The translations under genes and the position numbers were made by a program. This document shows positions 21,914-39,754 of a DNA stretch of 64,000 nucleotides, one piece after another. The stretch covers positions 1-64,000 of IMG/VR virus record IMGVR_UViG_3300027534_000002; one strand, written 5' to 3'. The notes under the pieces are model-generated. The model had not been told where the DNA came from. It did not search any database and saw only the letters and a list, made by a program, of their open reading frames with translations. This DNA is from a virus. The number at the start of each line of letters is the position of its first letter. Position 1 is the stretch's first letter.

Positions 21914-22002
21914 GGGTTCTTTTCCTGACGGTGGACTGTAAATCCATTGCCGTGTTATGTCAGGCGGTTCGGCAGAAGGTTCAACTCCTTGAGGACCCAC
22001 CA
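21914..22002 (+). tRNA. tRNA-Tyr (GUA), no canonical D-arm
   Basis: 89 nt with CCA. Acceptor GGGTTCT/AGGACCC, anticodon arm GTGGA-CTGTAAA-TCCAT, T-loop TTCAACT. Only 10 nt separate acceptor and anticodon stems (19 is normal), and CCTGAC there can pair with GTCAGG in the long variable region. Confidence 0.7.
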
Positions 22003-22011
22003 ATTTCAAAT

Positions 22012-22088
22012 GGGGGTGCATGTACTAAGGCTAGCGAGACTGATTTGCAATCAGACTGTTGTGGGTTCGATTCCCACCATCTCCACCA
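22012..22088 (+). tRNA. tRNA-Ala (UGC)
   Basis: 77 nt with CCA. Anticodon loop TTTGCAA in stem CTGA/TCAG. The acceptor has G3-U70, the alanine identity pair, which rules out reading it as Cys(GCA). T-loop TTCGATT. Confidence 0.88.
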
Positions 22089-22092
22089 ATTT

Positions 22093-22185
22093 GGATGATT
22101 AAGCAGACAAGCGTGCTGCATCTGTTTGGAAGACAGATTGATCTAGTGATCCTAGGTTGGGGTGCAAGTCCTCATTCATCCGCCA
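22093..22185 (+). tRNA. tRNA-Ser (GGA)
   Basis: 93 nt with G73-CCA; anticodon loop TTGGAAG, long variable arm; D-loop ACAAGCGTG (A18) and T-loop TGCAAGT (G55). Confidence 0.9.
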
Positions 22186-22191
22186 CTTTCT

Positions 22192-22267
22192 GGTGTTGTA
22201 TTTTAATCGGCAAATTGCTATCCTGTCACGATAGATGATGCGGGTTCGAATCCCGTCAGCACCGCCA
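22192..22267 (+). tRNA. tRNA-Asp (GUC)
   Basis: 76 nt with G73-CCA; anticodon arm CTATC-CTGTCAC-GATAG; acceptor GGTGTTG/CAGCACC; T-loop TTCGAAT. Confidence 0.93.
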
Positions 22268-22273
22268 ATTTAT

Positions 22274-22366
22274 GGGTAGCTAAACAGACAAGCGCGCTGT
22301 AACCGCCTTGAAAGCGGATTGATCTAGTGATCCTAGGTTGGGGTGCAAGTCCTCAGTTACCCGCCA
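22274..22366 (+). tRNA. tRNA-Ser (UGA)
   Basis: 93 nt with G73-CCA; anticodon loop CTTGAAA, long variable arm nearly identical to the Ser(GGA) copy; D-loop ACAAGCGCG, T-loop TGCAAGT. Confidence 0.9.
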
Positions 22367-22510
22367 ATTAAGCATCAACTATCCACACTTTATGAGGAAA
22401 TCCTCACAAGCTATCCCTTATATGGCTCTGGTCAAACATGGGCTTGTGCATGTTTGTAGATGATAACAGTGCTCACTGGAAAATAGCTAACTCTTAGTGG
22501 AGCACATTTC
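22367..22510 (+). ncRNA. Structured spacer in tRNA array
   Basis: 144 nt without ORF or tRNA. Three hairpins: TGAGGA/TCCTCA (22393-22406), AAACATG/CATGTTT (22434-22455), GTGCTC-ACT/AGT-GAGCAC (22469-22505, one bulge). Unknown RNA or processing element. Confidence 0.45.
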
Positions 22511-22584
22511 GGTCTTTTAGTTTAATGGTAAAACGACGCACTTGTAATGCGTTGATTCCGGTTCGACTCCGGACAGGACCTCCA
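22511..22584 (+). tRNA. tRNA-Thr (UGU)
   Basis: 74 nt with CCA; anticodon arm ACGCA-CTTGTAA-TGCGT; T-loop TTCGACT. Confidence 0.92.
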
Positions 22585-22593
22585 TTTCTTTTT

Positions 22594-22669
22594 ACGTGCT
22601 AATGTCCCAAGGCAGGCGAGTTGGACTCCAAATCCGACTGGGTCAGTTCGATTCTGACAGCACGTGCCA
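22594..22669 (+). tRNA. tRNA-Trp (CCA)
   Basis: 76 nt with G73-CCA; acceptor ACGTGCT/AGCACGT, anticodon loop CTCCAAA, T-loop TTCGATT. Confidence 0.93.
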
Positions 22670-22674
22670 ATTTC

Positions 22675-22748
22675 GGCCTATTAGTTTAGTGGTAAAACAA
22701 TTTACTCGTAATGAATAGTCCCCAGCTCAATTCTGGGATAGGCCTCCA
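22675..22748 (+). tRNA. tRNA-Thr (CGU)
   Basis: 74 nt with CCA; anticodon arm ATTTA-CTCGTAA-TGAAT; T-loop CTCAATT (C54). Confidence 0.9.
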
Positions 22749-22754
22749 TCTTAT

Positions 22755-22831
22755 GCGGTTGTAGCTCAATTTGGTAGAGCGCATCCTTGCCAAGGATATT
22801 GTCGCAGGTTCGAATCCTGTCAGCCGCACCA
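22755..22831 (+). tRNA. tRNA-Gly (GCC)
   Basis: 77 nt with CCA; anticodon loop TTGCCAA in ATCC/GGAT; acceptor GCGGTTG/CAGCCGC. Confidence 0.92.
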
Positions 22832-22833
22832 AT

Positions 22834-22926
22834 GGGTAGTTAAGCAGACAAGCGTACTGCAACCGTCTCGAAAGCGGATTGATCTAGCGAACCTAGGTTG
22901 GGGTGCAAGTCCTCAGCTACCCGCCA
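22834..22926 (+). tRNA. tRNA-Ser (CGA)
   Basis: 93 nt with G73-CCA; anticodon loop CTCGAAA; D-loop ACAAGCGTA, T-loop TGCAAGT. Third close Ser paralogue. Confidence 0.9.
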
Positions 22927-22934
22927 TTTTATAT

Positions 22935-23008
22935 GGTCCTTTAGCATAATGGTAATGCATCGGATTTTGATTCCGACTATGATGGTTCAATTCCATCAGG
23001 GACTTCCA
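22935..23008 (+). tRNA. tRNA-Gln (UUG)
   Basis: 74 nt with CCA; anticodon arm TCGGA-TTTTGAT-TCCGA; weak G1-U72 end pair; T-loop TTCAATT. Confidence 0.9.
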
Positions 23009-23017
23009 ATTTCTTTT

Positions 23018-23091
23018 GGCTCGAATAGCACAATGGTGAGTGTATTTCCTTGGTATGGAAGGGATGTGGGTTCGATTCCCACTTTGAGCCC
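23018..23091 (+). tRNA. tRNA-Thr (GGU), CCA not encoded
   Basis: Acceptor GGCTCGA/TTGAGCC, anticodon arm TTTCC-TTGGTAT-GGAAG. After C73 the sequence is CAC rather than CCA, so the tail must be added. Confidence 0.85.
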
Positions 23092-23096
23092 CACAC

Positions 23097-23171
23097 GCCT
23101 CTGTAATTCAAAAGTAGAATGGTTGTTTCATAAGCAACACGGTGAAGGTGCAAGTCCTTCCGGAGGTACTA
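23097..23171 (+). tRNA. tRNA-Met (CAU), elongator type; encoded CTA end
   Basis: Anticodon arm GTTGT-TTCATAA-GCAAC. Acceptor and D-stem nearly match the Lys(UUU) gene below, but the D-loop is AAAAGTA and the T-loop TGCAAGT. Ends A-CTA, so CCA repair is needed. Ile2 identity not excluded. Confidence 0.85.
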
Positions 23172-23177
23172 ATTTAT

Positions 23178-23846
23178 ATGCCAAACACTGCAATTTTATT
23201 CACAGGAAACGTACACGGTGACACCATTGATGTTCTAATTGAACAGACCAAAAATCAGACAAATAAAATAGCATCAATATGGGAAAATGAATCACCTGAA
23301 TATGTCGACAAATTAAAAAACAACAATTTTAAAATCATTTACAATAGTGTAAAACAACAAGAAATATATAAACCACAGTTTATTACTGTACATAATGGGT
23401 TGAAGTATCTTAAAGAAAACGGATATGAATATGTATTAAGGACTCGTTTTGATATACTATGTCAAGATTATGATAGATATTTAGAGATACTGGCGAAGTC
23501 GTATCGCGAAAAGCTAACAGCTATCGCTGGCATAGAGACATCTACCACTTATTTTTTAGATATTATTATAGGTGGGAAAATTGATGAGATGCTTAAATTT
23601 TTCGCATTGCAGCCAAACTATGATGTTAGGTACTATGAAAAATTTTTAATAGAAAATTACTCAAATAAAACAAATCTAACTAAAGAAGAAATAAGAAATA
23701 TATTGAATTTCTCGTTAAGTGATTGTGTCAATAACAACATTGAATTCATATGGTACAGGCCAATTTCGTGGAAGTCGCAAACGATCACGTGGCCAGACAT
23801 GAGAGTAATTAATGAGTATTGCAAAAATAATTTTATCTGGATGTAG
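23178..23846 (+). CDS. WavE-like glycosyltransferase family protein
   Basis: 222 residues. AILFTGNVHGDTIDVLIEQT, IASIWENE and YEYVLRTRFDI follow the WavE family (LPS-core synthesis in Vibrio): G-x-hydroxylic start, StW strand and the (K/R)TRxD acidic motif. Cytoplasmic. Probably modifies host surface glycans or virion proteins. Embedded in the tRNA array, and its last 10 nt lie inside the next tRNA gene. Confidence 0.8.
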   Translation: MPNTAILFTGNVHGDTIDVLIEQTKNQTNKIASIWENESPEYVDKLKNNNFKIIYNSVKQQEIYKPQFITVHNGLKYLKENGYEYVLRTRFDILCQDYDRYLEILAKSYREKLTAIAGIETSTTYFLDIIIGGKIDEMLKFFALQPNYDVRYYEKFLIENYSNKTNLTKEEIRNILNFSLSDCVNNNIEFIWYRPISWKSQTITWPDMRVINEYCKNNFIWM

Positions 23847-23913
23847 TTCAGCTTGGTAGAACATTTGATTTGGGATCAAAAGGTCGTGGGTTCGAATCCC
23901 ACCATCCAGACCA
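23837..23913 (+). tRNA. tRNA-Pro (UGG), overlapping upstream CDS
   Basis: 77 nt with CCA; acceptor CTGGATG/CATCCAG, anticodon loop TTTGGGA. The first 10 nt encode the end and TAG stop of the WavE-like gene. Confidence 0.93.
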
Positions 23914-23930
23914 ATTTATAAATAAACAAG

Positions 23931-23959
23931 TTGATAACAACACAACCACGTGTTAATAT
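23931..23959 (+). promoter_or_regulatory. Sigma70-type promoter within tRNA array
   Basis: TTGATA, spacer with ACACAACCACG, TAATAT, 17-bp spacing; 12 nt before the initiator-type tRNA, whose expression it would drive first. Confidence 0.8.
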
Positions 23960-23970
23960 TAACTACACAT

Positions 23971-24045
23971 TGCGGGATAGAGCAGTAGTAGCTCAACTGG
24001 CTCATAACCAGGAGGTCGGTGGTGCAAGTCCATCTCCCGCAACCA
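23971..24045 (+). tRNA. tRNA-fMet-like (CAU) initiator
   Basis: 75 nt with CCA. GAGCAG...GCTC D-arm and CTCATAA loop with the sequence TGCGGGATAGAG... closely track bacterial initiator tRNA; the end pair is T1-A72 instead of C1xA72. D-loop AGTAGTA, T-loop TGCAAGT. Confidence 0.8.
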
Positions 24046-24059
24046 ATTTCAACATATGT

Positions 24060-24155
24060 GCTCCTGTAGCTCAATTGGTAGAGCGGAAAGCTTATACCTT
24101 TCGTATGCCCCAGATTAGGGCGCGGTTGTCGGTTCGAATCCGGCCAGGAGTACCA
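24060..24155 (+). tRNA. tRNA with Ile anticodon (UAU), long variable arm
   Basis: 96 nt with CCA; acceptor GCTCCTG/CAGGAGT, anticodon arm GAAAG-CTTATAC-CTTTC, 25-nt variable region with hairpin GCCC-CAGATTA-GGGC, T-loop TTCGAAT. Ile tRNAs are normally class I. Confidence 0.82.
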
Positions 24156-24173
24156 ATTTCAACGAAAACAAAA

Positions 24174-24497
24174 ATGACTAAAAAAGATCGCAACAAACCC
24201 ACATATGAGTGGATTGATGTAAATGCTGGTGAAGCATATTACTCTTTATATGCATATTGTTTAGACAACGCCGATCAACTAAACGGCCATCCTGGAATTC
24301 AAATCGGGTGTTATCATTACGCCATCAGCAGAAAGATGACACCAAAAAAACCATTCAAAGTACATGCTAGGAAAATGAATCAAGGGCATATATGGAGAGG
24401 CTGGGGTAGATCTTACATTAAAGTAGATCGCGACATTCAGGTAGATAACAAAAAAAGATTCTGGCCTACACACAATCAAATTTCAATAGAAGTTTAA
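24174..24497 (+). CDS. Hypothetical protein (107 aa)
   Basis: Start MTKKDRNKPTYEWIDV at the first ATG after the tRNA; the longer frame runs through two tRNAs. Basic, aromatic (GHIWRGWGRSYIKVDRD). Not recognised. Ends 9 nt before tRNA-Lys. Confidence 0.72.
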   Translation: MTKKDRNKPTYEWIDVNAGEAYYSLYAYCLDNADQLNGHPGIQIGCYHYAISRKMTPKKPFKVHARKMNQGHIWRGWGRSYIKVDRDIQVDNKKRFWPTHNQISIEV

Positions 24498-24506
24498 CCT
24501 GCACAT

Positions 24507-24581
24507 GCCTCTGTAATTCAATGGTAGAATAACAGACTTTTAATCTGAAGGTTATGGGTTCGAGTCCCATCGGAGGCACCA
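24507..24581 (+). tRNA. tRNA-Lys (UUU)
   Basis: 75 nt with CCA; anticodon arm CAGA-CTTTTAA-TCTG, D-loop AATGGTA, T-loop TTCGAGT. Confidence 0.94.
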
Positions 24582-24650
24582 ATTTATACAGTCAACGCTC
24601 TGATATATTGCTATAGTATATAAGTAATAATTTAATTTAATTTTTAATAT

Positions 24651-24725
24651 TCCTCAGTGGCAGACTAGCAATGCACCCGACTGTTAATCGGGATTATGAA
24701 GGAGCGTAACCTTCCTGAGGAGCCA
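24651..24725 (+). tRNA. tRNA-Asn (GUU), unusual T-loop
   Basis: 75 nt with G73-CCA; acceptor TCCTCAG/CTGAGGA, anticodon arm CCCGA-CTGTTAA-TCGGG. T-loop AGCGTAA in stem GAAGG/CCTTC, D-loop with TAGC. Confidence 0.9.
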
Positions 24726-24755
24726 ATTTATAACTGCGATCAAAACACAAAGCAG

Positions 24756-24784
24756 TTGCTAATAACAACACCCGATGTGAATAT
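24756..24784 (+). promoter_or_regulatory. Sigma70-type promoter
   Basis: TTGCTA, spacer with AACAACACCCG, GAATAT, 17-bp spacing; 5 nt to the ATG at 24790. Confidence 0.7.
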
Positions 24785-24789
24785 ATAAC

Positions 24790-25038
24790 ATGAAGAAAAC
24801 TCAACGCCAATGTGCAGACGACTTAGTCAACTACATCATTCGTAAAGAACTTATTCACATCAAGTCAGAATATCTTCTTCGCATTGAAAATAGTGAATGG
24901 ATGGCATGTGGCACAGAGGATAAAACCAGAATTGAAGAATTGCAACGGGACATTCAAAGTGCTCGAGAATATATTAGTGTACTGGATGAGTACATCACTA
25001 AATTTGAAAAAGTAGAAACCTCGCCATTGTTCAATTAA
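24790..25038 (+). CDS. Hypothetical protein (82 aa)
   Basis: Helical, charged; likely coiled coil (RIEELQRDIQSAREYISVLDEYI). Directly abuts the next gene (TAA|ATG). Not recognised. Confidence 0.7.
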   Translation: MKKTQRQCADDLVNYIIRKELIHIKSEYLLRIENSEWMACGTEDKTRIEELQRDIQSAREYISVLDEYITKFEKVETSPLFN

Positions 25039-25326
25039 ATGGAACAACTAATAGAACCATTCTGCTACATTGCAAATGTCAAAGTTACAGATAAAAATGG
25101 CAAACAAGGGAATAGACCGTTAATTAGATTTCAAGCACCTGACTCGGGATTAAATTTTAATACTTATTACGTTGCGTGCGCATGTGCTTCTGTATACAAC
25201 ATGTTCCTTGATTATATTGCCGAGAAAGATCAAATAGAATTTGAAAAACAATTCAAAGAGATATTCAATAAGCTTATCGATGAAGGTCTAATAGAAATCA
25301 TGAAAGACAAACCAATTTCGGGTTGA
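25039..25326 (+). CDS. Hypothetical protein (95 aa)
   Basis: Beta-rich N-terminus (CYIANVKVTDKNGKQGNR), a Cys-Ala-Cys-Ala segment and a helical end. Its TGA stop and last codons form the first 7 nt of tRNA-Phe. Not recognised. Confidence 0.72.
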   Translation: MEQLIEPFCYIANVKVTDKNGKQGNRPLIRFQAPDSGLNFNTYYVACACASVYNMFLDYIAEKDQIEFEKQFKEIFNKLIDEGLIEIMKDKPISG

Positions 25327-25395
25327 TAGCAATGATGGTTCATGCGTCTGTCTGAAGAACAGATCATCTCGGTTCGAATCCGAGTCAACCCACCA
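25320..25395 (+). tRNA. tRNA-Phe (GAA), overlapping upstream CDS
   Basis: 76 nt with CCA; acceptor GGGTTGA/TCAACCC, anticodon arm TCTGT-CTGAAGA-ACAGA. Confidence 0.94.
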
Positions 25396-25400
25396 CTTAT

Positions 25401-25475
25401 GTCGCCGTCGTCTAATGGTTAGGACGGAGGATTTTCATTCCTCAAATGGGGGTTCGATTCCCCTCGGCGATACCA
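25401..25475 (+). tRNA. tRNA-Glu (UUC)
   Basis: 75 nt with CCA; anticodon arm GAGGA-TTTTCAT-TCCTC; T-loop TTCGATT. Confidence 0.94.
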
Positions 25476-25485
25476 ATTTCAATAC

Positions 25486-25580
25486 GGAGTGTAAACCAAA
25501 CAGGCGCGTTGGAACTGTTTGCTAAACAGATTGTGGTTTTGCTAAAAAGCCATCTGGTTCGAGTCCAGTGCACTCCGCCA
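25486..25580 (+). tRNA. tRNA-Ser (GCU)
   Basis: 95 nt with G73-CCA; anticodon loop TTGCTAA, long variable arm. D-loop ACAGGCGCG and T-loop TTCGAGT are canonical, unlike the other three Ser tRNAs. Confidence 0.92.
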
Positions 25581-25586
25581 CTTTAT

Positions 25587-25661
25587 TGTCTCGTAGCTCA
25601 TCGGTAGAGCACTTCCCTGATAAGGAATAGGTAGCTGGTTCGATTCCAGTCGGGACAACCA
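25587..25661 (+). tRNA. tRNA-Ile (GAU)
   Basis: 75 nt with CCA; acceptor TGTCTCG/CGGGACA, anticodon arm TTCC-CTGATAA-GGAA. Confidence 0.93.
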
Positions 25662-25683
25662 ATTTCAATAACCAATACTAAAA

Positions 25684-25911
25684 ATGAAAAGATATCTTTT
25701 GATAGCAGGCCACGACTATTATCCTGGTGCGGGTACAAGCAATTGGGTTGATTCGTATGATTCATACGAAGAGGCTCTCAATATGGTTGAAACAATGGAA
25801 GAAAATAACTACGGTAGGTGTGGTTATACTATTGGAGATATGCCATGTGATTGGTATGAAATAGTAGATTTAAACGAATGGAGTCCTCGCAATTCAATTT
25901 CAACATATTAA
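25684..25911 (+). CDS. Hypothetical protein (75 aa)
   Basis: MKRYLLIAGHDYYPGAGTSN, then SYEEALNMVETMEE and DWYEIVDL: a small alpha/beta fold found in many phages as accessory protein of unknown role. Ends 5 nt before DNA ligase. Confidence 0.78.
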   Translation: MKRYLLIAGHDYYPGAGTSNWVDSYDSYEEALNMVETMEENNYGRCGYTIGDMPCDWYEIVDLNEWSPRNSISTY

Positions 25912-25916
25912 ATCCA

Positions 25917-27014
25917 ATGCAAACACTTTACAAATACAGTACCAAAGGCGCACCTCTTCAGTGGAGCATTGAAGTAGAAGGTGACAAGTATCGAACGATT
26001 GAAGGGCAAGTAGGAGGCAAGCTGACTACTTCGCAATGGACTATTTGTTTCGCAAAGAATGTTGGTAAGGCAAACGCAACTACGGCAGAAGAACAAGCTC
26101 TGAAAAAGGCTGAATCTATCTATCGCAAGAAAAAGGACGCCGGATTCAGCGAGACATTGGAATCATCTGGTGCGAATTTCTTTGAACCGATGCTTGCTCA
26201 TAAATGGGATCAGCACCCTCTAGCACCTGGTACACCATTGGCTCTTCAGCCCAAACTAGACGGACATAGATGCATTGCGTATCTTAAAGATGGTAAAGTA
26301 TATCTCCAAAGTCGAAAGGGCAAACAGATCACTTCATGCACCCATATTGAAAATGCTCTTGAAGATTTATTCAAAGAAAATCAATCTTTTATTCTAGATG
26401 GTGAGCTTTACAATCATACCATTCCGTTTGAAAAGATTTCGGGGTTAGTTCGTCAAATTGAACACACTGCGGAATGCAAAGATATTCAATATCATGTTTA
26501 TGATCTTGTTGATCTAAATAACCGACAACTAACTTTCGACGAAAGAAATTGGCAATTGGTTACAAAGCAATTACGGCTTTGTAATAATGAGCATATAAAC
26601 ATGGTTACTACATTGTTCGTAAATGGCAGCGATGCTATTGCGGAGTATGAAAGTGAGTGTGTGGAAGATGGATATGAAGGTATCATGATTCGTGATACTA
26701 CATCTATCTATGAGAATAAAAGATCGAAAGGACTTCTGAAACTCAAACAATTCCAAGACGAAGAATTCAATATTGTCGAAATCAAAGAAGGTCAAGGTAA
26801 TCGCACCGGACTAGCCACAGAAGCAGTATTGGCTCTTGAAGACGGTAGAGCTTTTTCTACTGGAGTTATTGGCAACGAAGAATATGCACGTGGCTTATTT
26901 AATGACCGCGAAAAAGTCAAAGGGATGCTAGCCACAGTAAAATACCAAGGAAAGACTGCACAGGGGATTCCTAGATTTGGTAAAATGAAAATCGTAAGAT
27001 ATGAAGGATTCTAA
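25917..27014 (+). CDS. ATP-dependent DNA ligase with WGR-like N-terminus
   Basis: 365 residues. Residues 1-75 form a WGR-like domain (YKYSTKGAPLQWSIEVEG). The catalytic core has motif I QPKLDGHR (K113 adenylated), III LDGELYNH, IV EGIMIRD and V LLKLKQ, then an OB fold. Seals nicks during phage DNA replication. The start at 25917 follows the stop of the upstream gene; a longer frame would overlap it. Confidence 0.92.
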   Translation: MQTLYKYSTKGAPLQWSIEVEGDKYRTIEGQVGGKLTTSQWTICFAKNVGKANATTAEEQALKKAESIYRKKKDAGFSETLESSGANFFEPMLAHKWDQHPLAPGTPLALQPKLDGHRCIAYLKDGKVYLQSRKGKQITSCTHIENALEDLFKENQSFILDGELYNHTIPFEKISGLVRQIEHTAECKDIQYHVYDLVDLNNRQLTFDERNWQLVTKQLRLCNNEHINMVTTLFVNGSDAIAEYESECVEDGYEGIMIRDTTSIYENKRSKGLLKLKQFQDEEFNIVEIKEGQGNRTGLATEAVLALEDGRAFSTGVIGNEEYARGLFNDREKVKGMLATVKYQGKTAQGIPRFGKMKIVRYEGF

Positions 27015-27016
27015 GT

Positions 27017-27409
27017 ATGAATATATCTTTTAATCATTTCCATAAACTATTATCAGATCCAAGGTTTATAGTAAAATACAAGCATCCTGACTGTACTGAT
27101 GTTCGGGAGTGTAGATTCAAACAAAACCTTCTTAAATTTTTTAAAGGCACAAACACTCTGTATGTTGATGCTGATCTGTGGTTTCTGGAAGAATACAACA
27201 AAGCAATATCTTATGACGAAGAATCGGGTTCTTTCATTCTTCGCAAGAAAGAATATGACATGGAAGAAACTGATGAATTTGAAGTAGTCGAGGGGTGGGA
27301 CGGATATTGTGAAACGAGACCGATTATAAAAGTACTCGACACATGGAAACTAATTCCGATTACGTTCACATTTTACGCAAGAGCATCAACAAAAGACTTG
27401 ATAGGCTAA
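27017..27409 (+). CDS. Hypothetical protein (130 aa)
   Basis: Begins 2 nt after the ligase stop, so cotranscribed. Mixed alpha/beta with acidic middle (KKEYDMEETDEFEVVEGWDG). Not recognised. Confidence 0.72.
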   Translation: MNISFNHFHKLLSDPRFIVKYKHPDCTDVRECRFKQNLLKFFKGTNTLYVDADLWFLEEYNKAISYDEESGSFILRKKEYDMEETDEFEVVEGWDGYCETRPIIKVLDTWKLIPITFTFYARASTKDLIG

Positions 27410-27433
27410 CAGCCCCGTTGTATAATTGTTTAC

Positions 27434-27509
27434 GCGGTAGTAGCTCAATTGGTAGGGCGTCTGACTTCCACTCAGAATGTTGCAGGTTCGAGTCCTGTCT
27501 ACCGCACCA
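27434..27509 (+). tRNA. tRNA-Gly (UCC)
   Basis: 76 nt with CCA; acceptor GCGGTAG/CTACCGC, anticodon arm CTGA-CTTCCAC-TCAG. Confidence 0.94.
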
Positions 27510-27538
27510 CATTCAACCAAATCAACCAAATCAACATA

Positions 27539-27673
27539 ATGGATATAGACTCAATTATCACTACAATACCAAAATTGATTTATTTCACAAGCATTGGATT
27601 TTTAGTTATATTGTACTTTGCATTGATTATCAAAGCATTGGTTATCGCACTCGATGCAATCATTGATTTCTAA
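27539..27673 (+). CDS. Small membrane protein (44 aa)
   Basis: MDIDSIITTIPKLIYFTSIG followed by one long hydrophobic helix to near the end (FLVILYFALIIKALVIAL). A longer frame would run back through tRNA-Gly. Inner-membrane peptide of unknown role. Confidence 0.68.
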   Translation: MDIDSIITTIPKLIYFTSIGFLVILYFALIIKALVIALDAIIDF

Positions 27674-27676
27674 AAT

Positions 27677-27973
27677 ATGAGTGGAGGGCATTTTGATTAC
27701 AATCAATTTCGATTGACTGACATTTCGAGGGAAATCATGTCCCTTATTAATAGCAATGAAGTTCCAAATGAATTCAGGCAGGCTCGGAAGTATCCTACTG
27801 ATATTTTAGATAAGTTTGAAGTAGCAATGATTATATTAGATACTGCTGCAGATATAGTACATCATATCGATTATCTTGTTGAAGGAGATATTGGAGAAGA
27901 TACATTCAGGGAACTATATAACAAAGCAATCAAGGATTTTTGTACCAAACTTGCAGAACATCAACTTACTTAA
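27677..27973 (+). CDS. GGHFDY-family phage protein (98 aa)
   Basis: MSGGHFDYNQFRLTDISREI matches a widespread small phage protein family that begins SGGHFDY; helical thereafter. Function unknown. Confidence 0.78.
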   Translation: MSGGHFDYNQFRLTDISREIMSLINSNEVPNEFRQARKYPTDILDKFEVAMIILDTAADIVHHIDYLVEGDIGEDTFRELYNKAIKDFCTKLAEHQLT

Positions 27974-27976
27974 CCT

Positions 27977-27982
27977 TAAATA
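27977..27982 (+). promoter_or_regulatory. Late promoter box TAAATA
   Basis: TAAATA, 5 nt, ATG (27988). Confidence 0.68.
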
Positions 27983-27987
27983 CTCTT

Positions 27988-28461
27988 ATGCCCACTAACG
28001 ACCAATCTCTCATCTGTGAAGCGTACGCAGATCAAATCGCATCAAATGCATCCGACTCTGAAGAATATTCGATTTTTATCGAAGCAGAACTAACTGCACC
28101 AGCGAAGACATCCAAAGCAATTCAAGCATTTGAAAACATTCTCAAACGATATGATCGAAATGGTGCAATAGCATTAACTCCCGGGGGTGTATATACACGA
28201 CCTTCAGGTGACAAGACTGTAGTTGAATATGATGCATATATTAAACGAGGGCGAAGATACATCAATCCAGAAGAAGACAATTCGCGTTATCTTCCGTCAT
28301 ATATCGAATCAGCTATCTCTGACTTGTATGATGACCTTGAAGGTTATAACGGTACAGATGACATCGAATTGGAAGGCGAAGATGGAGATCCTCCAGAACA
28401 CGTCTCAAGCTTCGAGATTCCTGGTGAGAGGGTGACTATCAGATACGTATTGAGCTACTAA
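27988..28461 (+). CDS. Putative virion-associated protein (157 aa)
   Basis: Start MPTNDQSLICEAYADQI carries the same kind of LxxEAY lead as the other late proteins. Rest is acidic with an EGEDGDPPEH loop. The start is set by the late box; a longer frame to 27940 overlaps the gene upstream. Structural role is inferred. Confidence 0.7.
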   Translation: MPTNDQSLICEAYADQIASNASDSEEYSIFIEAELTAPAKTSKAIQAFENILKRYDRNGAIALTPGGVYTRPSGDKTVVEYDAYIKRGRRYINPEEDNSRYLPSYIESAISDLYDDLEGYNGTDDIELEGEDGDPPEHVSSFEIPGERVTIRYVLSY

Positions 28462-28473
28462 TTTAAATTTGGC

Positions 28474-28552
28474 ATGGACGACTAGACGGACGCATGTCGA
28501 GGATATCCAACATCAGTTCAACTAGTGACTGCGGGAGAGAACCGCACAATTT
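28474..28552 (+). ncRNA. Structured spacer before tRNA-Cys
   Basis: No ORF. Contains a T-arm-like hairpin TGCGG-GAGAGAA-CCGCA followed by CAATTT, but no acceptor partner. A related GCCG-GAGAGA-CGGC hairpin precedes tRNA-Arg at 29620. Confidence 0.35.
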
Positions 28553-28628
28553 GGATGGCGACCCGGCTAGTGAAGGGCTACGTCTGCAAAACGTTTGTTG
28601 TTGAGTGCGATTCTCAAGCCATCCTCCA
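28553..28628 (+). tRNA. tRNA-Cys (GCA)
   Basis: 76 nt with CCA; acceptor GGATGGC/GCCATCC, anticodon arm ACGT-CTGCAAA-ACGT; T-loop TGCGATT (G55), D-loop with TAGT. Confidence 0.9.
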
Positions 28629-28638
28629 ATTTTAAAAC

Positions 28639-28983
28639 ATGCACACTATACATACAACCACTACAAACAATCAATCTAAACAAGAAGAGCCCCAACGCAC
28701 TTCTTTGATGGTAGCTCCTACTAAATTCTATATTTGGTGTAAAAGCAAATTCAACATGGCACTAATTTTAAGCATCGGGTTCCTTTTAGTGCAGGGAGTT
28801 AATGGGCAAAATTCTTTTCGATTAAATACATTAGGTTCTGACGGGCCTGATGGTATTTGTGTGCGGAATGGAAATCAATGGGATTGCTATGGGCAACATA
28901 TTAGCGCACCCGAACCAACGAACCCAGGAGTCCTGATGACAGCAGCGGGGGTAGCAGTTATGATGAAAAGAAAGAGGCATTAA
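28639..28983 (+). CDS. Secreted protein with PEP-CTERM-like sorting tail
   Basis: 114 residues. Hydrophobic export segment MALILSIGFLLVQGVNG (about 40-56), a short polar mature part with two Cys, then the tripartite tail APEPTNPGVLMTAAGVAVMM-KRKRH: PEP motif, hydrophobic helix, basic end, as in PEP-CTERM substrates of exosortase. The true start may be 28639, 28708 or 28756; the last two give a shorter n-region. Would be processed by a host exosortase and moved to the surface. Confidence 0.75.
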   Translation: MHTIHTTTTNNQSKQEEPQRTSLMVAPTKFYIWCKSKFNMALILSIGFLLVQGVNGQNSFRLNTLGSDGPDGICVRNGNQWDCYGQHISAPEPTNPGVLMTAAGVAVMMKRKRH

Positions 28984-29018
28984 TTTCTTTTGATTTTTAA
29001 AAAACAAACAATAAGATG

Positions 29019-29047
29019 TTGATTTAACACACACCACAAAGTATAAT
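29019..29047 (+). promoter_or_regulatory. Sigma70-type promoter of beta-barrel gene
   Basis: TTGATT, spacer with ACACACCACAA, TATAAT, 17-bp spacing; near-consensus. 35 nt to the ATG at 29083. Confidence 0.85.
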
Positions 29048-29082
29048 ATAAACGAAGATAACATCTTCAACAAAATCAAATT

Positions 29083-29571
29083 ATGAAAACAAAACTACTA
29101 TCACTAGTAATGGCACTCGCAACACAAATGGCATTTGCAGGCTCTCCTGTAACACCTCCAACCCCTGCTACACCAGAAGTTGGATCCACAGGATGGGTTT
29201 CAAAGGCATTCACAACTGTGGTCCTTGACAATGGTGATGAAACAGTCGGTGGAGGTTTGAGTCTTGAAGCTCCAGTTGTAGGCGATCTGAAAGCAGAACT
29301 TACTGTTGGTGTAGCAGATGACCTTTATACCGTAGGTGGTAATCTTCTCTATTACGTCCCCGTAGGAGAGAAGCTTTCTGTATATGGCTTGGCGGGCGGT
29401 GCTTATGAATTCGATACAGATCAATGGACCGTACGAACCGGTGGCGGTCTAAGTTATAGTCTTACTAATACCCTCAATCTGTTTGCAGATGCAACCTACA
29501 ATTTCCTTGTAGAGAATGATGCCAAGGATGGCGTCGTTGCAATTCGAGCAGGTGTTGGGTTTAAGTTCTGA
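29083..29571 (+). CDS. Outer-membrane beta-barrel protein
   Basis: 162 residues. Signal peptide MKTKLLSLVMALATQMAFA, a Pro/Thr linker, then alternating amphipathic strands (LKAELTVGVADD, YTVGGNLLYYVPV, LSVYGLAGGAYEF, LNLFADATYNF) ending in GVGFKF with C-terminal Phe, the BAM recognition signature. About eight strands, OmpA/OmpX size. Made from a strong early-type promoter, so likely to alter the host surface early, for example by superinfection exclusion. Confidence 0.82.
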   Translation: MKTKLLSLVMALATQMAFAGSPVTPPTPATPEVGSTGWVSKAFTTVVLDNGDETVGGGLSLEAPVVGDLKAELTVGVADDLYTVGGNLLYYVPVGEKLSVYGLAGGAYEFDTDQWTVRTGGGLSYSLTNTLNLFADATYNFLVENDAKDGVVAIRAGVGFKF

Positions 29572-29643
29572 TTATACTGATCTGAATAGGCGAACGCCAC
29601 CTGGTAAAGTGCGTGACAGCCGGAGAGACGGCCTCGTTAATTT
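29572..29643 (+). ncRNA. Structured spacer before tRNA array 2
   Basis: No ORF. Hairpins GGC-GAAC-GCC and GCCG-GAGAGA-CGGC. A weak promoter-like CTGAAT-N17-TAAAGT with CGCCACC in its spacer may start array 2. Confidence 0.35.
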
Positions 29644-29718
29644 GGGTGGTTCGTATAACGGATAGTACGCAACGCTACGGACGTTGAGACAGGGGTTCGA
29701 TTCCTCTACTGCCCACCA
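29644..29718 (+). tRNA. tRNA-Arg (ACG)
   Basis: 75 nt with CCA; anticodon arm CAACG-CTACGGA-CGTTG; T-loop TTCGATT. Confidence 0.92.
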
Positions 29719-29721
29719 TAT

Positions 29722-29796
29722 GCCCAGTTCGTTCAACGGATAGGACAGCGGTCTTCTAAACCGCGAATAGAGGTTCGATTCCTCTACTGGGTACCA
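29722..29796 (+). tRNA. tRNA-Arg (UCU)
   Basis: 75 nt with CCA; acceptor GCCCAGT/ACTGGGT, anticodon arm GCGGT-CTTCTAA-ACCGC. Confidence 0.93.
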
Positions 29797-29806
29797 TTTT
29801 CCATAT

Positions 29807-29883
29807 AGCCACGTGATGTAATTGGTAAACGTGACGGTCTCAAAAACTGTTTTCTATGGGTTCGAGTCCCATCGTGGCTACCA
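29807..29883 (+). tRNA. tRNA-Leu (CAA), short variable loop
   Basis: 77 nt with CCA; acceptor AGCCACG/CGTGGCT, anticodon arm ACGGT-CTCAAAA-ACTGT, 5-nt variable loop TTTCT. Confidence 0.88.
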
Positions 29884-29884
29884 T

Positions 29885-29961
29885 GCCCTGTGTAGCATAT
29901 TTAGTTAATGTCTTCGCCTGTGAAGCGAACGAAGATGGTGCAATTCCATCCCAGGGAACCA
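29885..29961 (+). tRNA. tRNA-His (GUG)
   Basis: 77 nt with CCA; anticodon arm TTCGC-CTGTGAA-GCGAA. Acceptor GCCCTGT/CCAGGGA has mismatches at both ends (G1-A72, T7-C66). D-loop ATTTAGTTA, T-loop TGCAATT. Confidence 0.85.
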
Positions 29962-30111
29962 ATTCGCGAATAGTTAATGGTATCGTTCGAAAGATACTAA
30001 AGACTAACTGAGACCCCCATTTCGAAGTTTATAGGTTGAACACCGCAGTTAATCGGTGCGGGAGGTGTGTTCGAGTGCACACGATGGATCAGGTCTCGAC
30101 AATTTACATAT
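29962..30111 (+). ncRNA. tRNA-like structured RNA of unknown type
   Basis: First a two-step hairpin (AGTTA/TAACT and GTATC/GATAC, loop GTTCGAAA). Then a tRNA-like set: GAGACC/GGTCTC (30010-30097), CACCG-CAGTTAAT-CGGTG and GTGTG-TTCGAGTG-CACAC, both with 8-nt loops, and 9 extra nt before the 3' acceptor strand. Not a canonical tRNA. Confidence 0.45.
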
Positions 30112-35873: not shown

Positions 35874-38081
35874 ATGCTCGATAAACATTACATGAAAGAC
35901 ATTTTAGTCAAAAAACGGACAGGAGATACAGAAATTTTCGATGCAGAAAAGGCCAATAGAATGGTCTACCATGCAACAAAAGGCGTAGCAGGAGCATCAG
36001 CAATTGATATTCTTATGAATGCCAAGATTAACTTCTACGATGGCATCACCTCAGCGGAAATTCAAGACTCATTGGTTAAGTCAGCAGAAGATCTTATTTC
36101 TTTAGAAAATCCAAATTATTCAATTGTAGCCGCACGGCTTTTGGTATATGGCCTTCGTAAAGAAGTGTGGGGTGGTAATACACCACCAAGACTATATGAC
36201 CACATCAAGAAATGTGTAGACCTCGGAGTCTATACAGATGAGCTAATTAACAAGTTCAGTGAAGAAGAGATCAATAAGATTGGCAGTTATATTGACCACG
36301 AAAGAGACGAGACTATGTTCGATTTTGCTGGCATGAAGCATCTCGTGCGCACTGGCTTAGTTCAAGATCGAGTCAATCATAAAGTATATGAGACTCCTCA
36401 ATTTGCGTTCATGTGTATTGGTATGTCTCACTATGCAAATTATGAATCCAAGAAACGGATTCAATATATCCGCCAATTCTATGACGATGTATCTGAGCGT
36501 CGTTTGAATATACCAACACCAATGCTTACAAGATGGAGAACCCCCGTTAAGACAGGTGCATCTTGTTGCTTGATTCAAGTCGATGATACGGCAGACTCGA
36601 TCTTTTCGTCTGCGCATATTATGGCGAGGGCTACCAGTTATGGATATGGCATTGGATTAGATTTCGGCAAGATTCGTGGTGTTGGGTCTCCTGTTAAGAA
36701 TGGCGAGACTATTCATGGTGGGGTTATTCCATATCTCAAAGTGTTCCAAGATGCGATCAAGTCTCAGCAACAAGGTGGTGCTAGACGTGGTGCCGGTACA
36801 GCCAATGCACCTATTTTCCATTGGGAGATTGAATCTATTCTCCAATTGCGAAATGTTGGTGGTACCGAATATAATCGTGTAAGACATCTTGACTATGTAA
36901 TTGGTATTTCTAAAATCTTCTATGAACGCTGGAATGAAGGCGGAAACATTACTCTATTCTCGAATCATGAGGTTCCTGAATTATTTGATTCGTTTGGTAT
37001 GCCTGAATTTGACGAGCTTTATCTCAAGGCAGAAGCAAACCCAGAGATTAAATTTAAAAAGTCTATTCCTGCAGATGATATCTTTGATTCTTTGATCAAA
37101 GAAAGAATCGAAACGAACAGAATTTATATTCTTAATATCGATCTTGCTAATGATTTTTCTCCATGGACTGAGCGTGTCAACATGACGAATCTTTGTGTAG
37201 AAATCCTACAACCAACGAAACCATGTCAATCCCTAGATGATCCTAATGGTGAAATTGGTACGTGTTTGCTTGCGGCGGTCAATATGCTCAATATCAGATC
37301 GGCAAATGAACACCGTGAGGTATGCCATCAGGCCGTACGCATGCTAGATGATATGGTAGATCGCCAATTATACTTTGCACCTGCTGCCGAAAGATTCACT
37401 AAGAATAAAAGATCGCTTGGTATTGGCATTACTAATCTAGCAGGATGGTTAGCGACACAAGGCTTGAATCATGATTCACCAGAAGCACCTAATGCTATCG
37501 ATGAGTTCATGGAACGCCAGCAATATTACCTAATGGAGGCATCTTGGTTGCTTGCCAAAGAAAAGGGACCAGCGCCTGACTGGTCTAAATCCAAATACGC
37601 TCAAGGATATTCCAAGCTTGATCTATACAAGAAGGATGTGGATGAATTTATTACCAGAAAGCCTTCAATGGACTGGGATGCCCTGATGTCAAATATTCGT
37701 CGTGACGGCATGAGAAACATGACGGTCTCCTCACAGATGCCGTGCGAAAAGTGCCTAAAATGGGATACCAAAGTCTTTGTTGATGGCAAACCTATGAACT
37801 TCCATGAAATTTGCGAACAACTTGGGTTTTCGTGGAAGAATATTGAAATGCATGATATGAAAGGCTGGCATGAGTCTGATAAAACTATTACACTCGAAAC
37901 AAAAGACGGGCCGGTTGAGACGAATAGAATTTATTACAATGGCACTAGCGAAGTATTTGATATTGAGCTTGAAAATGGTGATATTATCAAAGCGACTAAA
38001 GATCATAGATTCCTGACCAAGGATGGGTGGAAGACAGTGGAAGAACTTTCAGTTGACGAAGAAATTATGGAAATCGAATAA
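35874..38081 (+). CDS. nrdA: Ribonucleotide reductase alpha, N-part fused to N-intein
   Basis: 735 residues. N-extein (1-626) is class Ia NrdA: ATP-cone, then TGASCCLIQ (first redox Cys), NLCVEIL (thiyl Cys), GTCLLAAVN (second redox Cys), up to SSQMPCEK. Residue 627 onwards (CLKWDTKVFVDGKPMNFHEI) is an Int-N of 109 residues with block A at Cys1 and block B ATKDHRFLTKDG, ending at a stop. The C-part is a separate gene beyond an endonuclease. Trans-splicing would give a 774-residue enzyme, normal length. Confidence 0.93.
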   Translation: MLDKHYMKDILVKKRTGDTEIFDAEKANRMVYHATKGVAGASAIDILMNAKINFYDGITSAEIQDSLVKSAEDLISLENPNYSIVAARLLVYGLRKEVWGGNTPPRLYDHIKKCVDLGVYTDELINKFSEEEINKIGSYIDHERDETMFDFAGMKHLVRTGLVQDRVNHKVYETPQFAFMCIGMSHYANYESKKRIQYIRQFYDDVSERRLNIPTPMLTRWRTPVKTGASCCLIQVDDTADSIFSSAHIMARATSYGYGIGLDFGKIRGVGSPVKNGETIHGGVIPYLKVFQDAIKSQQQGGARRGAGTANAPIFHWEIESILQLRNVGGTEYNRVRHLDYVIGISKIFYERWNEGGNITLFSNHEVPELFDSFGMPEFDELYLKAEANPEIKFKKSIPADDIFDSLIKERIETNRIYILNIDLANDFSPWTERVNMTNLCVEILQPTKPCQSLDDPNGEIGTCLLAAVNMLNIRSANEHREVCHQAVRMLDDMVDRQLYFAPAAERFTKNKRSLGIGITNLAGWLATQGLNHDSPEAPNAIDEFMERQQYYLMEASWLLAKEKGPAPDWSKSKYAQGYSKLDLYKKDVDEFITRKPSMDWDALMSNIRRDGMRNMTVSSQMPCEKCLKWDTKVFVDGKPMNFHEICEQLGFSWKNIEMHDMKGWHESDKTITLETKDGPVETNRIYYNGTSEVFDIELENGDIIKATKDHRFLTKDGWKTVEELSVDEEIMEIE
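37752..38078 (+). other. Int-N half of split intein
   Basis: 109 residues from Cys1 (TGC at 37752). Block A CLKWDTKVFVDG; block B with T-x-x-H (TKDH). Splice site in NrdA is between K and SS of MPCEK/SSLTQNSTNG, beside the conserved MPxE...NSTNG loop. Confidence 0.92.
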
Positions 38082-38091
38082 TCTACCCAAT

Positions 38092-38143
38092 TTAGTTGCC
38101 ATAATGCGATAAGTAAAATCTATACGCATTATGGCAACTAAAC
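38092..38143 (+). promoter_or_regulatory. 18-bp perfect inverted repeat with late box, over endonuclease start
   Basis: Arms 38092-38109 and 38126-38143 are perfectly complementary; the 3' arm contains the ATG (38131). The 16-nt loop holds TAAGTA (38111-38116). A transcript from nrdA would hide the start codon; one begun at the loop box would not. Confidence 0.8.
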
Positions 38144-39219
38144 GTTCTAATCTAAAGAGTAGTATTATCGATTTTTTAAATGCATTTTCATCGAATATAA
38201 ATGCCAAAAAAGATGTAGATGAATTATATGGCGAGGGATTTCAAGGCAAAACTATAAAAGTTTTCGCAATGGCGATAAAAGACAAATGGTCAAAAGATGG
38301 ATTTTACAAATGGAATACCCGAGTCAAATATTGTCTTCAAAACAAAATTCCGGTTATGTATGATCCACTCACAGCATCTCTCAAATTCGGTATTACATTA
38401 ATTGAAGCGGAATTAAAAATAGCCAATTTAAAATCTCAAAAGACTACATCTTTAGAAGGGTTTTGTGCGAGACACGGCAAAGAAAAAGGCGAAGCATTAT
38501 TTAAAAAATTTCAGTTGTCAAGCAAGAAATCCTCAGTTAATATATTGAATGAGTATAAACAAAAATATCCACATACATGGAAATGTGAATATAGTAATTA
38601 CATGCGCCGCAAATCCAAATGGTGCAAAGAGTATTATTTGTCAAGACAAGATTGCACCGAAGAGGAAGCTAGTAAATTAGCACGAGAATACTATTTTCAA
38701 AAGTGTGGGCTACTGAGCTCTGTATATTACGACAAAGGGTATACGGATGAGGATATTGATATTATTTTGGAAAAAATAAATGCCAAACGTATATTCAACA
38801 ACACAAGAAACCCAACCAATCTCCAACGCATATTTGGTGATGAATGGCTTGCACATCATCAAGAGATTAATAATAAGTTAAGAGAGACAATGGAAAAAAA
38901 AGGTGTGTGGCTAACTCTTGACAAATTAGATGACTGGAAGAAATACAAAATGGAAGTAGGATTTTGGACATCCCAATCAATCAATGATAATGAAGTACTT
39001 TTTGAAAAAAGAAGCAAGGAATATCATGTAGACCATCGATATTCACAGAAGCAAGGATATATAAACGACATATCACCGAGAGTGATTGGGTCTGTTGTCA
39101 ATTTAGAAATTTTAGAGAGATCAAAAAATTGTTCAAAACAAAGCAAGTCAAGCATCAGTATTGACGAATTGTATAAAATATATAACGAATATGAAAATCA
39201 ACAGAATAACAAAATCTAA
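38131..39219 (+). CDS. Free-standing HNH homing endonuclease in fractured nrdA
   Basis: 362 residues. C-terminal EYHVDHRYSQKQGYINDISP, VVNLEILERSKNCSKQSK is the H-D-H ... N ... N-x-x-K pattern of phage HNH homing enzymes; N-terminal 270 residues are basic, helical, probably DNA recognition. Sits exactly between the intein halves; more AT-rich than nrdA. Expected to cut intein-less nrdA alleles. Overlaps Int-C by 29 nt. Confidence 0.87.
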   Translation: MATKRSNLKSSIIDFLNAFSSNINAKKDVDELYGEGFQGKTIKVFAMAIKDKWSKDGFYKWNTRVKYCLQNKIPVMYDPLTASLKFGITLIEAELKIANLKSQKTTSLEGFCARHGKEKGEALFKKFQLSSKKSSVNILNEYKQKYPHTWKCEYSNYMRRKSKWCKEYYLSRQDCTEEEASKLAREYYFQKCGLLSSVYYDKGYTDEDIDIILEKINAKRIFNNTRNPTNLQRIFGDEWLAHHQEINNKLRETMEKKGVWLTLDKLDDWKKYKMEVGFWTSQSINDNEVLFEKRSKEYHVDHRYSQKQGYINDISPRVIGSVVNLEILERSKNCSKQSKSSISIDELYKIYNEYENQQNNKI

Positions 39220-39307
39220 CGAAATTTGTCCAACGTACGACGTAGAATCTCCAAATGTCCATTCTTATGTAATCGACTCGGGAAAAAGCAAGATTATATC
39301 GCACAAT
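39191..39307 (+). other. Int-C half of split intein
   Basis: 39 residues; block F region TYDVESPNVHSYVIDSG and terminal HN; C-extein begins with Ser at 39308. Confidence 0.92.
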
Positions 39308-39754
39308 AGTTCTTTAACCCAGAATTCGACTAATGGTATGGAACCAATTGTCAGTCTCTTCCAATTCAAAGATGATCGTCAAGGAAGTGCGGCATGGATT
39401 GCACCAGGTGCAAAGAAATACGGTAAGTATTATAAATCGGCGTATGATTGTACAAATGAAGGAATTATCAAATGTGCTGCAGCTATTACGAAATGGCTGT
39501 GCATGGCCGCTAGTACCAATCATTACTACAACTACGGCAATTATGAGAATAATAAACTTGAAACTACAGACGTTGCGTATGATATTCTTTTATCATACAA
39601 ATACGGTCTGAAGACTCTTTATTATGCGAAGAACAAACAAATAGTCTCAGCAGACACAAGTCTTGCTGCGGAAGAAGTCTCAGAAAATGATACATCAGAA
39701 AAAGCCGAGTCTTCGGACGATTCTGGATGTGCTACCGGATTTTGCTCACTATGA
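39191..39754 (+). CDS. nrdA: C-intein fused to ribonucleotide reductase alpha C-part
   Basis: 187 residues. Int-C of 39 residues (MKINRITKSNEICPTYDVES ... KIISHN) ends in the block G His-Asn, then Ser+1 of the C-extein SSLTQNSTNG. The C-extein (148 residues) completes NrdA and ends with the redox pair SGCATGFCSL. Start at 39191 lies inside the endonuclease gene; a longer frame to 39161 is less likely because Int-C halves normally begin at such a Met. Confidence 0.92.
   Translation: MKINRITKSNEICPTYDVESPNVHSYVIDSGKSKIISHNSSLTQNSTNGMEPIVSLFQFKDDRQGSAAWIAPGAKKYGKYYKSAYDCTNEGIIKCAAAITKWLCMAASTNHYYNYGNYENNKLETTDVAYDILLSYKYGLKTLYYAKNKQIVSADTSLAAEEVSENDTSEKAESSDDSGCATGFCSL

Follow-up and report, generated by a model that had tools for sequence, protein, structure and literature searches.

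Transfer RNAs (tRNAs) are held in their L shape by a contact between G18 of the D-loop and pseudouridine 55 of the T-loop, which textbooks, tRNA finders and modification biology treat as close to universal. A tRNA array in the IMG/VR virus record IMGVR_UViG_3300027534_000002 raises the question of how this elbow might be built when both partners are replaced at once. The stretch analyzed here (the window) comprises positions 1 to 64,000 of this 192,569-base record. A sequence-only reading of it had reported that eight tRNAs carry A18 and G55 in strict covariation, the others having G18 and U55, and proposed a selected alternative elbow. Our analysis favors functional tRNAs with such a natural alternative elbow, namely a composite GNRA fold closed by A18 and G55, to which we assign a probability of about 0.78.

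The A18/G55 switch in the window

The window holds 31 tRNAs, 29 called by ARAGORN plus an Asn tRNA at 24651 and a Cys tRNA at 28553. Positions 18, 19, 55 and 56 were taken from the cloverleaf by a structure-based reading of the D- and T-loops. Eight of the tRNAs (three Ser, two Met, Asn, Cys and His) combine A18-G19 with G55-C56, while the remaining 23 all have G18-G19 together with U55, with a T-loop starting TTC in 22 and CTC in one. The eight-gene pattern first read from the sequence was thus confirmed (8/8 versus 23/23, Fisher p = 1.3e-7). Since the three switched Ser tRNAs are close paralogues, the eight genes amount to about five or six independent cases. The switched tRNAs, followed by two canonical ones for comparison, are:

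22093..22185, + strand: tRNA-Ser(GGA), A18/G55; D-loop GACAAGCGTG, T-loop TGCAAGT; ARAGORN and loop reading
22274..22366, + strand: tRNA-Ser(UGA), A18/G55; D-loop GACAAGCGCG, T-loop TGCAAGT; ARAGORN and loop reading
22834..22926, + strand: tRNA-Ser(CGA), A18/G55; D-loop GACAAGCGTA, T-loop TGCAAGT; ARAGORN and loop reading
23097..23169, + strand: tRNA-Met(CAU), A18/G55; D-loop AAAAGTA, T-loop TGCAAGT; 3' end ACTA instead of CCA
23971..24045, + strand: tRNA-Met(CAU), initiator-like (A11-U24), A18/G55; D-loop AGTAGTA, T-loop TGCAAGT
24651..24725, + strand: tRNA-Asn(GUU), A18/G55, inverted A54/U58; D-loop GACTAGCAA (..CTAGCAA), T-loop AGCGTAA
28553..28628, + strand: tRNA-Cys(GCA), A18/G55; D-loop with CTAGTGA, T-loop TGCGATT; hand-read
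29885..29961, + strand: tRNA-His(GUG), A18/G55; D-loop TATTTAGTTA, T-loop TGCAATT; ARAGORN and loop reading
25486..25580, + strand: tRNA-Ser(GCU), canonical paralogue; G18 (AACAGGCGCG), U55 (TTCGAGT)
24507..24581, + strand: tRNA-Lys(UUU), canonical; G18 (AATGGTA), U55 (TTCGAGT)

The contrasts between Ser(GCU) and Ser(UGA), and between Lys (AATGGTA) and Met (AAAAGTA), to which the sequence-only reading had pointed, reappeared with the same loops on structure-based reading. General tRNA models (RF00005 and the cloverleaf) recognise the switched tRNAs: ARAGORN calls six of them, plus Asn in permissive mode, and both Met tRNAs, Asn and His pass the Rfam gathering threshold. The Ser tRNAs score below the Rfam threshold, the canonical Ser(GCU) included. 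The Asn tRNA, called by both Rfam and permissive ARAGORN, also has its 54/58 pair inverted (A54, U58). The Cys tRNA, missed by every program, was read by hand from a 7-bp acceptor stem (GGATGGC/GCCATCC), a T-stem (TTGAG/CTCAA) and the anticodon GCA. None of the eight can form the G18-U/pseudouridine 55 pair of the canonical elbow, having A18 and G55 in its place, and all eight retain the G19-C56 Watson-Crick pair. The sequence U54-G55-N56-R57-A58 is found in seven of them, with Asn showing A-G-C-G-U instead. The 18/55 pattern recurs in L370, a near-identical phage of 195,888 bases. In a distant relative, whose ligase is 40% identical, the tRNAs are canonical except for one Lys read as A18/U55, and the switch may therefore be fairly recent in the lineage of the window phage.

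Covariation and distribution across phages and bacteria

We ran four scans of the IMG/VR contigs, which are mostly fragments: two selecting a G55 T-arm, one selecting an A18 D-arm with the T-loop left free, and one control selecting an ordinary T-arm. When 1281 unique usable tRNAs from viral contigs were grouped at 80% identity, 737 clusters showed G18/U55, 125 showed A18/G55, four showed A18/U55 and none showed G18/G55 (Fisher 1.6e-147). The strict two-position covariation claimed for the window thus extends to viral tRNAs at large, and random mixing of A18/U55 or G18/G55 does not occur in these scans. The control scan, blind to the feature, returned 531 tRNAs with GG/TC and 21 with AG/GC, with zero instances of AG/TC or GG/GC; the switched share of this set was 4.4% with one anchor per locus left out. 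Conversely, the scan with the A18 D-arm alone recovered G55-C56 in 40 of the 45 tRNAs called at a match. Overall, A18/G55 was seen in hundreds of tRNAs from other phages and in isotypes of all kinds. Most apparent G18/G55 exceptions were set aside as register ambiguities (AGG) or short D-loops.

A laboratory precedent for this rule is said to exist: Doyon, Zagryadskaya, Chen and Steinberg (J Mol Biol, 2004) reportedly described a specific purine trap in active suppressor tRNAs selected in E. coli, in which U55 requires G18 and G55 requires A18. The viral 80% clusters follow the same rule. The suppressors reportedly came from a randomised library, whereas the phage tRNAs are natural, span many isotypes and are nearly genome-wide in some phages. 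In the open-access literature searched, no naturally occurring A18-G55 tRNA turned up.

With positions 18, 55 and 57 masked, the nearest tRNA with the same anticodon in another contig was canonical for 141 of 194 switched tRNAs, which suggests that switching happened repeatedly. In the closest switched/canonical pair, with 87% identity, the differences include positions 18, 55 and 57. The switch probably ran through A18.U55, because A18/U55 intermediates exist and G18/G55 is almost absent.

Phages differ widely in the extent of the switch. G55-C56 is present in 33 of 34 tRNAs of a 131-kb viral contig, in 32 of 35 of a 275-kb contig and, from the control scan, 14 of 15 tRNAs of an 83-kb contig are switched; other contigs have none in about 38 tRNAs, and mixed sets are common. 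No A18/G55 tRNA was found in the stretches read of T5, CcrSwift, S-CRM01, RcXuper, QDWS359, RiverRider, Lak-B1, D479 and two huge-phage assemblies, nor in Mesorhizobium phage Cp1R7A-A1, Sinorhizobium phage phiLM21 or virus Rctr197k. A search of 13 records for a phage-borne TruB came back empty; within this sample, phages with A18/G55 lack the enzyme. RtcB, present in 1 of 13 and in 2 of 37 records, showed no link.

Among named isolates, Staphylococcus phage K has a switched tRNA-Trp (D-loop AATTAGTA, T-loop TGCAAAT) adjoining canonical Asp and Phe tRNAs. Across 181 Staphylococcus phage records the whole gene keeps an identity of 99% or more, and some depositors have labelled it tRNA-Pseudo. 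During infection, transcripts of the four phage K tRNAs arise in the middle phase (PMC9241854). Phage O1-102 carries a canonical tRNA-Trp (G18/U55) at the tRNA-Trp locus, where vB_SurM-PSU5 (L670, about 601-674) has a natural within-tRNA recombinant, O1-102-like in its 5' part and K-like in its 3' part, which yields G18/G55. This hybrid, the sole G18/G55 at the Staphylococcus locus, goes unrecognised by ARAGORN, and its anticodon stem is broken.

In bacterial genomes, scanned for one common D-arm form only, the A18 pattern gave a single match in 249 Pseudomonadota genomes, outside any tRNA, while the G18 pattern was present in 21 of 21 genomes with 4 to 24 occurrences each. Across 289 Verrucomicrobiota, three A18 D-arm matches included one real tRNA, which lies in a phage-like array with five of six tRNAs of the A18/G55 type. 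Elsewhere in bacterial assemblies, A18/G55 was seen within a prophage-like stretch (Brucella, L264) or tRNA clusters (L322, L261). In an Akkermansiaceae genome, six A18/G55 tRNAs form a cluster, while the eight tRNAs read elsewhere in it are G18/U55. We read the A18/G55 elbow as a phage-specific feature. Most matches of a genome scan for the G55 T-arm were cobalamin riboswitches, which were rejected as tRNAs and kept as a structural parallel.

A proposed composite elbow and its alternatives

In the canonical elbow, residue 18 inserts between 57 and 58, pairs with 55 and adjoins G19-C56 (PMC4810234). When 139 switched tRNAs were set against 285 canonical ones of those same contigs, position 57 was the only other strongly shifted site (A57 in 59% versus 21%, p = 2e-14), a shift that a composite GNRA turn would predict. 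All 202 viral G55 tRNAs have a purine at 57, and 183 retain U54/A58. UGNRA loops closed by U-A belong to the T-loop/lonepair triloop type known from riboswitches, in which the composite GNRA is completed by an A from outside the loop (PMC2258182), and the cobalamin riboswitches bear a hairpin, GGGTGCRAATCCC, that matches the switched T-arms. As G55-C56-R57 and the spatially adjacent A18 likewise spell GNRA, we infer a composite GNRA elbow: A18 would take the place of G18 between R57 and A58, and its pair with G55 would most likely be of the sheared G.A kind seen in GNRA turns. Such pairing of an outside A with a loop G is suggested by the strong 18/55 covariation. G55-C56-R57-A18 would thereby form a composite tetraloop inside the T-loop, with G19-C56 and, mostly, U54-A58 kept.

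As in the canonical elbow (PMC4810234, PMC7912444), G19-C56, R57, G53-C61 and mostly U54-A58 are kept, a purine at 18 is able to sit between 57 and 58, and an L shape is expected; unlike it, the 18-55 pair is A-G, with neither a uridine for pseudouridine 55 nor a G18 for 2'-O-methylguanosine 18 (Gm18). The type R1 lonepair triloops of the thiamine pyrophosphate, flavin mononucleotide and cobalamin riboswitches (PMC2258182) share the U-A-closed U-G-N-R-A with two bulged 3' nucleotides and an outside A completing the GNRA, but the partner there is another RNA element or a ligand, whereas here it would be D-loop residue 18 beside G19-C56.

Neither pseudouridine 55 nor Gm18 can arise from G55 and A18, so the elbow has to hold in their absence. 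The gain could be an elbow whose folding depends neither on the host's pseudouridylation of 55 nor, in hosts that make it, on Gm18; this may be useful when many tRNAs must mature fast in infection and may also hide them from elbow-reading effectors. This benefit is proposed more tentatively than the elbow itself. The sequence-only reading had raised escape from TruB, RNase or anticodon nuclease as a possible reason for the switch; escape from TruB does follow from G55, but none of these was upheld as the reason. The selected alternative elbow that it proposed gained support; it did not extend to the composite-GNRA explanation, to phages with nearly complete switching or to the laboratory precedent.

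Together, the strict covariation, the R57 shift, the spread over isotypes and phages, the near absence from bacterial tRNAs of the D-arm form scanned and the wholesale switching argue for the alternative elbow. Several points weigh against it. The pair geometry and the activity of the tRNAs are deduced from sequence, and the benefit to the phage is a further step of deduction; in D-loops longer than seven nucleotides, position 18 was set by a rule preferring GG and then AG; a few A18/U55 tRNAs occur; one almost wholly switched phage has a clear G18/G55 exception, Ala-GGC; and the window phage itself mixes both kinds. The rule-based assignment might also suggest chance or an artefact of D-loop parsing, but seven-nucleotide D-loops with a fixed position 18 agree (Lys versus Met above), as do the independent scans on the D-arm alone and the canonical T-arm alone, leaving this explanation next to no probability. 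That the eight genes are decaying pseudogenes or non-tRNAs is very improbable: the Cys gene missed by all programs, the CTA end of the Met tRNA at 23097 and the tRNA-Pseudo label of the phage K gene would fit it, but decay creates no paired changes, the stems are intact, the switched phage K gene is conserved across its 181 records and phage K tRNAs are transcribed (PMC9241854).

Tolerated drift, in which A18/G55 is a near-equivalent reached by chance via A18.U55 and phages put up with slightly worse tRNAs, is unlikely but keeps real weight. Single A18/U55 intermediates do occur, G18/G55 almost never does, and mixed sets are common. Wholesale switching argues against pure drift, as the joint change of 33/34 and 32/35 tRNAs of different isotype is unexpected if each drifted independently, and there are almost none in cellular genomes despite their far more numerous tRNAs. 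An evasion hypothesis, under which an effector of the host, a rival phage or the phage itself recognises the G18-pseudouridine 55 elbow or depends on elbow modifications, hitting host tRNAs while the switched elbow spares the phage set, draws on the near exclusivity of A18/G55 to phages and on the whole sets switched in some of them. We know of no elbow-reading defence nuclease, and in the mixed sets that most phages carry, protection would extend to the switched tRNAs alone. RNA ligase is absent from the three almost wholly switched phages and present in 18 of 34 others, an inverse link in keeping with evasion but not significant (p = 0.23). Phage tRNAs altered relative to the host do evade tRNA-targeting defences (PMC10264068), though through anticodon-loop changes, and that text does not mention the T-loop, D-loop or elbow. 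On balance we consider evasion unlikely. Its more specific form, that some phages rebuilt near-entire sets as a self/non-self mark, such that an effector from host defence, a rival phage or the phage's own genome requiring the G18-pseudouridine 55 elbow destroys or disables host tRNAs while the A18-G55 set sustains phage translation, strikes us as distinctly improbable.

Accompanying features and meaning of a probable second elbow

Other departures from standard tRNAs were also seen. Ten phage tRNAs have A19-U56 in place of G19-C56, an independent Watson-Crick covariation of the elbow (L068, L121, L145, L158, L161, L169, L175, L416, L466, L474). An extended, class II-like variable arm, which isoleucine tRNAs do not usually have, is frequent in phage tRNA-Ile(UAU) and often built around an AGATTAG-like loop: 13 of 22 such tRNAs reach 84 nt or more, versus 0 of 48 for Ile(GAU) (long-arm loci: window 24060-24155; L102, L119, L121, L126, L145, L158, L175, L379, L404, L412, L433, L443). 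In the window, positions 21917-22003 and about 30012-30104 hold tRNA-like elements uncalled by programs, one with a Tyr-like anticodon GTA and one with an acceptor GAGACC/GGTCTC. In this phage, several tRNAs get low scores from Rfam or ARAGORN or escape them, such as Ala (22016-22085; 30.1 bits) and Cys (28553-28628), so phage tRNA counts are probably too low.

The virus record also codes for ribonucleotide reductase, ThyX, PhoH, an ATP-dependent DNA ligase and an RNA ligase. The gene for the large subunit of the reductase (window 35874-39754) is broken by apparent intein pieces: its first open reading frame ends in CEKCLKWDTKVF...HRFLTKDGW, its last has an IISHNSS junction, and a separate frame (38131-39219) lies in between, as in split-intein genes.

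A second natural elbow chemistry, reaching nearly every isotype in some phages, would make the G18-pseudouridine 55 rule a choice rather than a necessity. It would explain why some phage tRNAs get filed as pseudogenes, and A18/G55 tRNAs would offer ready-made modification-independent tRNA scaffolds. They would also constitute a natural experiment on the purpose of pseudouridine 55 and TruB, and the presence of A18/G55 in Staphylococcus phage K and about 190 relatives makes these ideas testable now.

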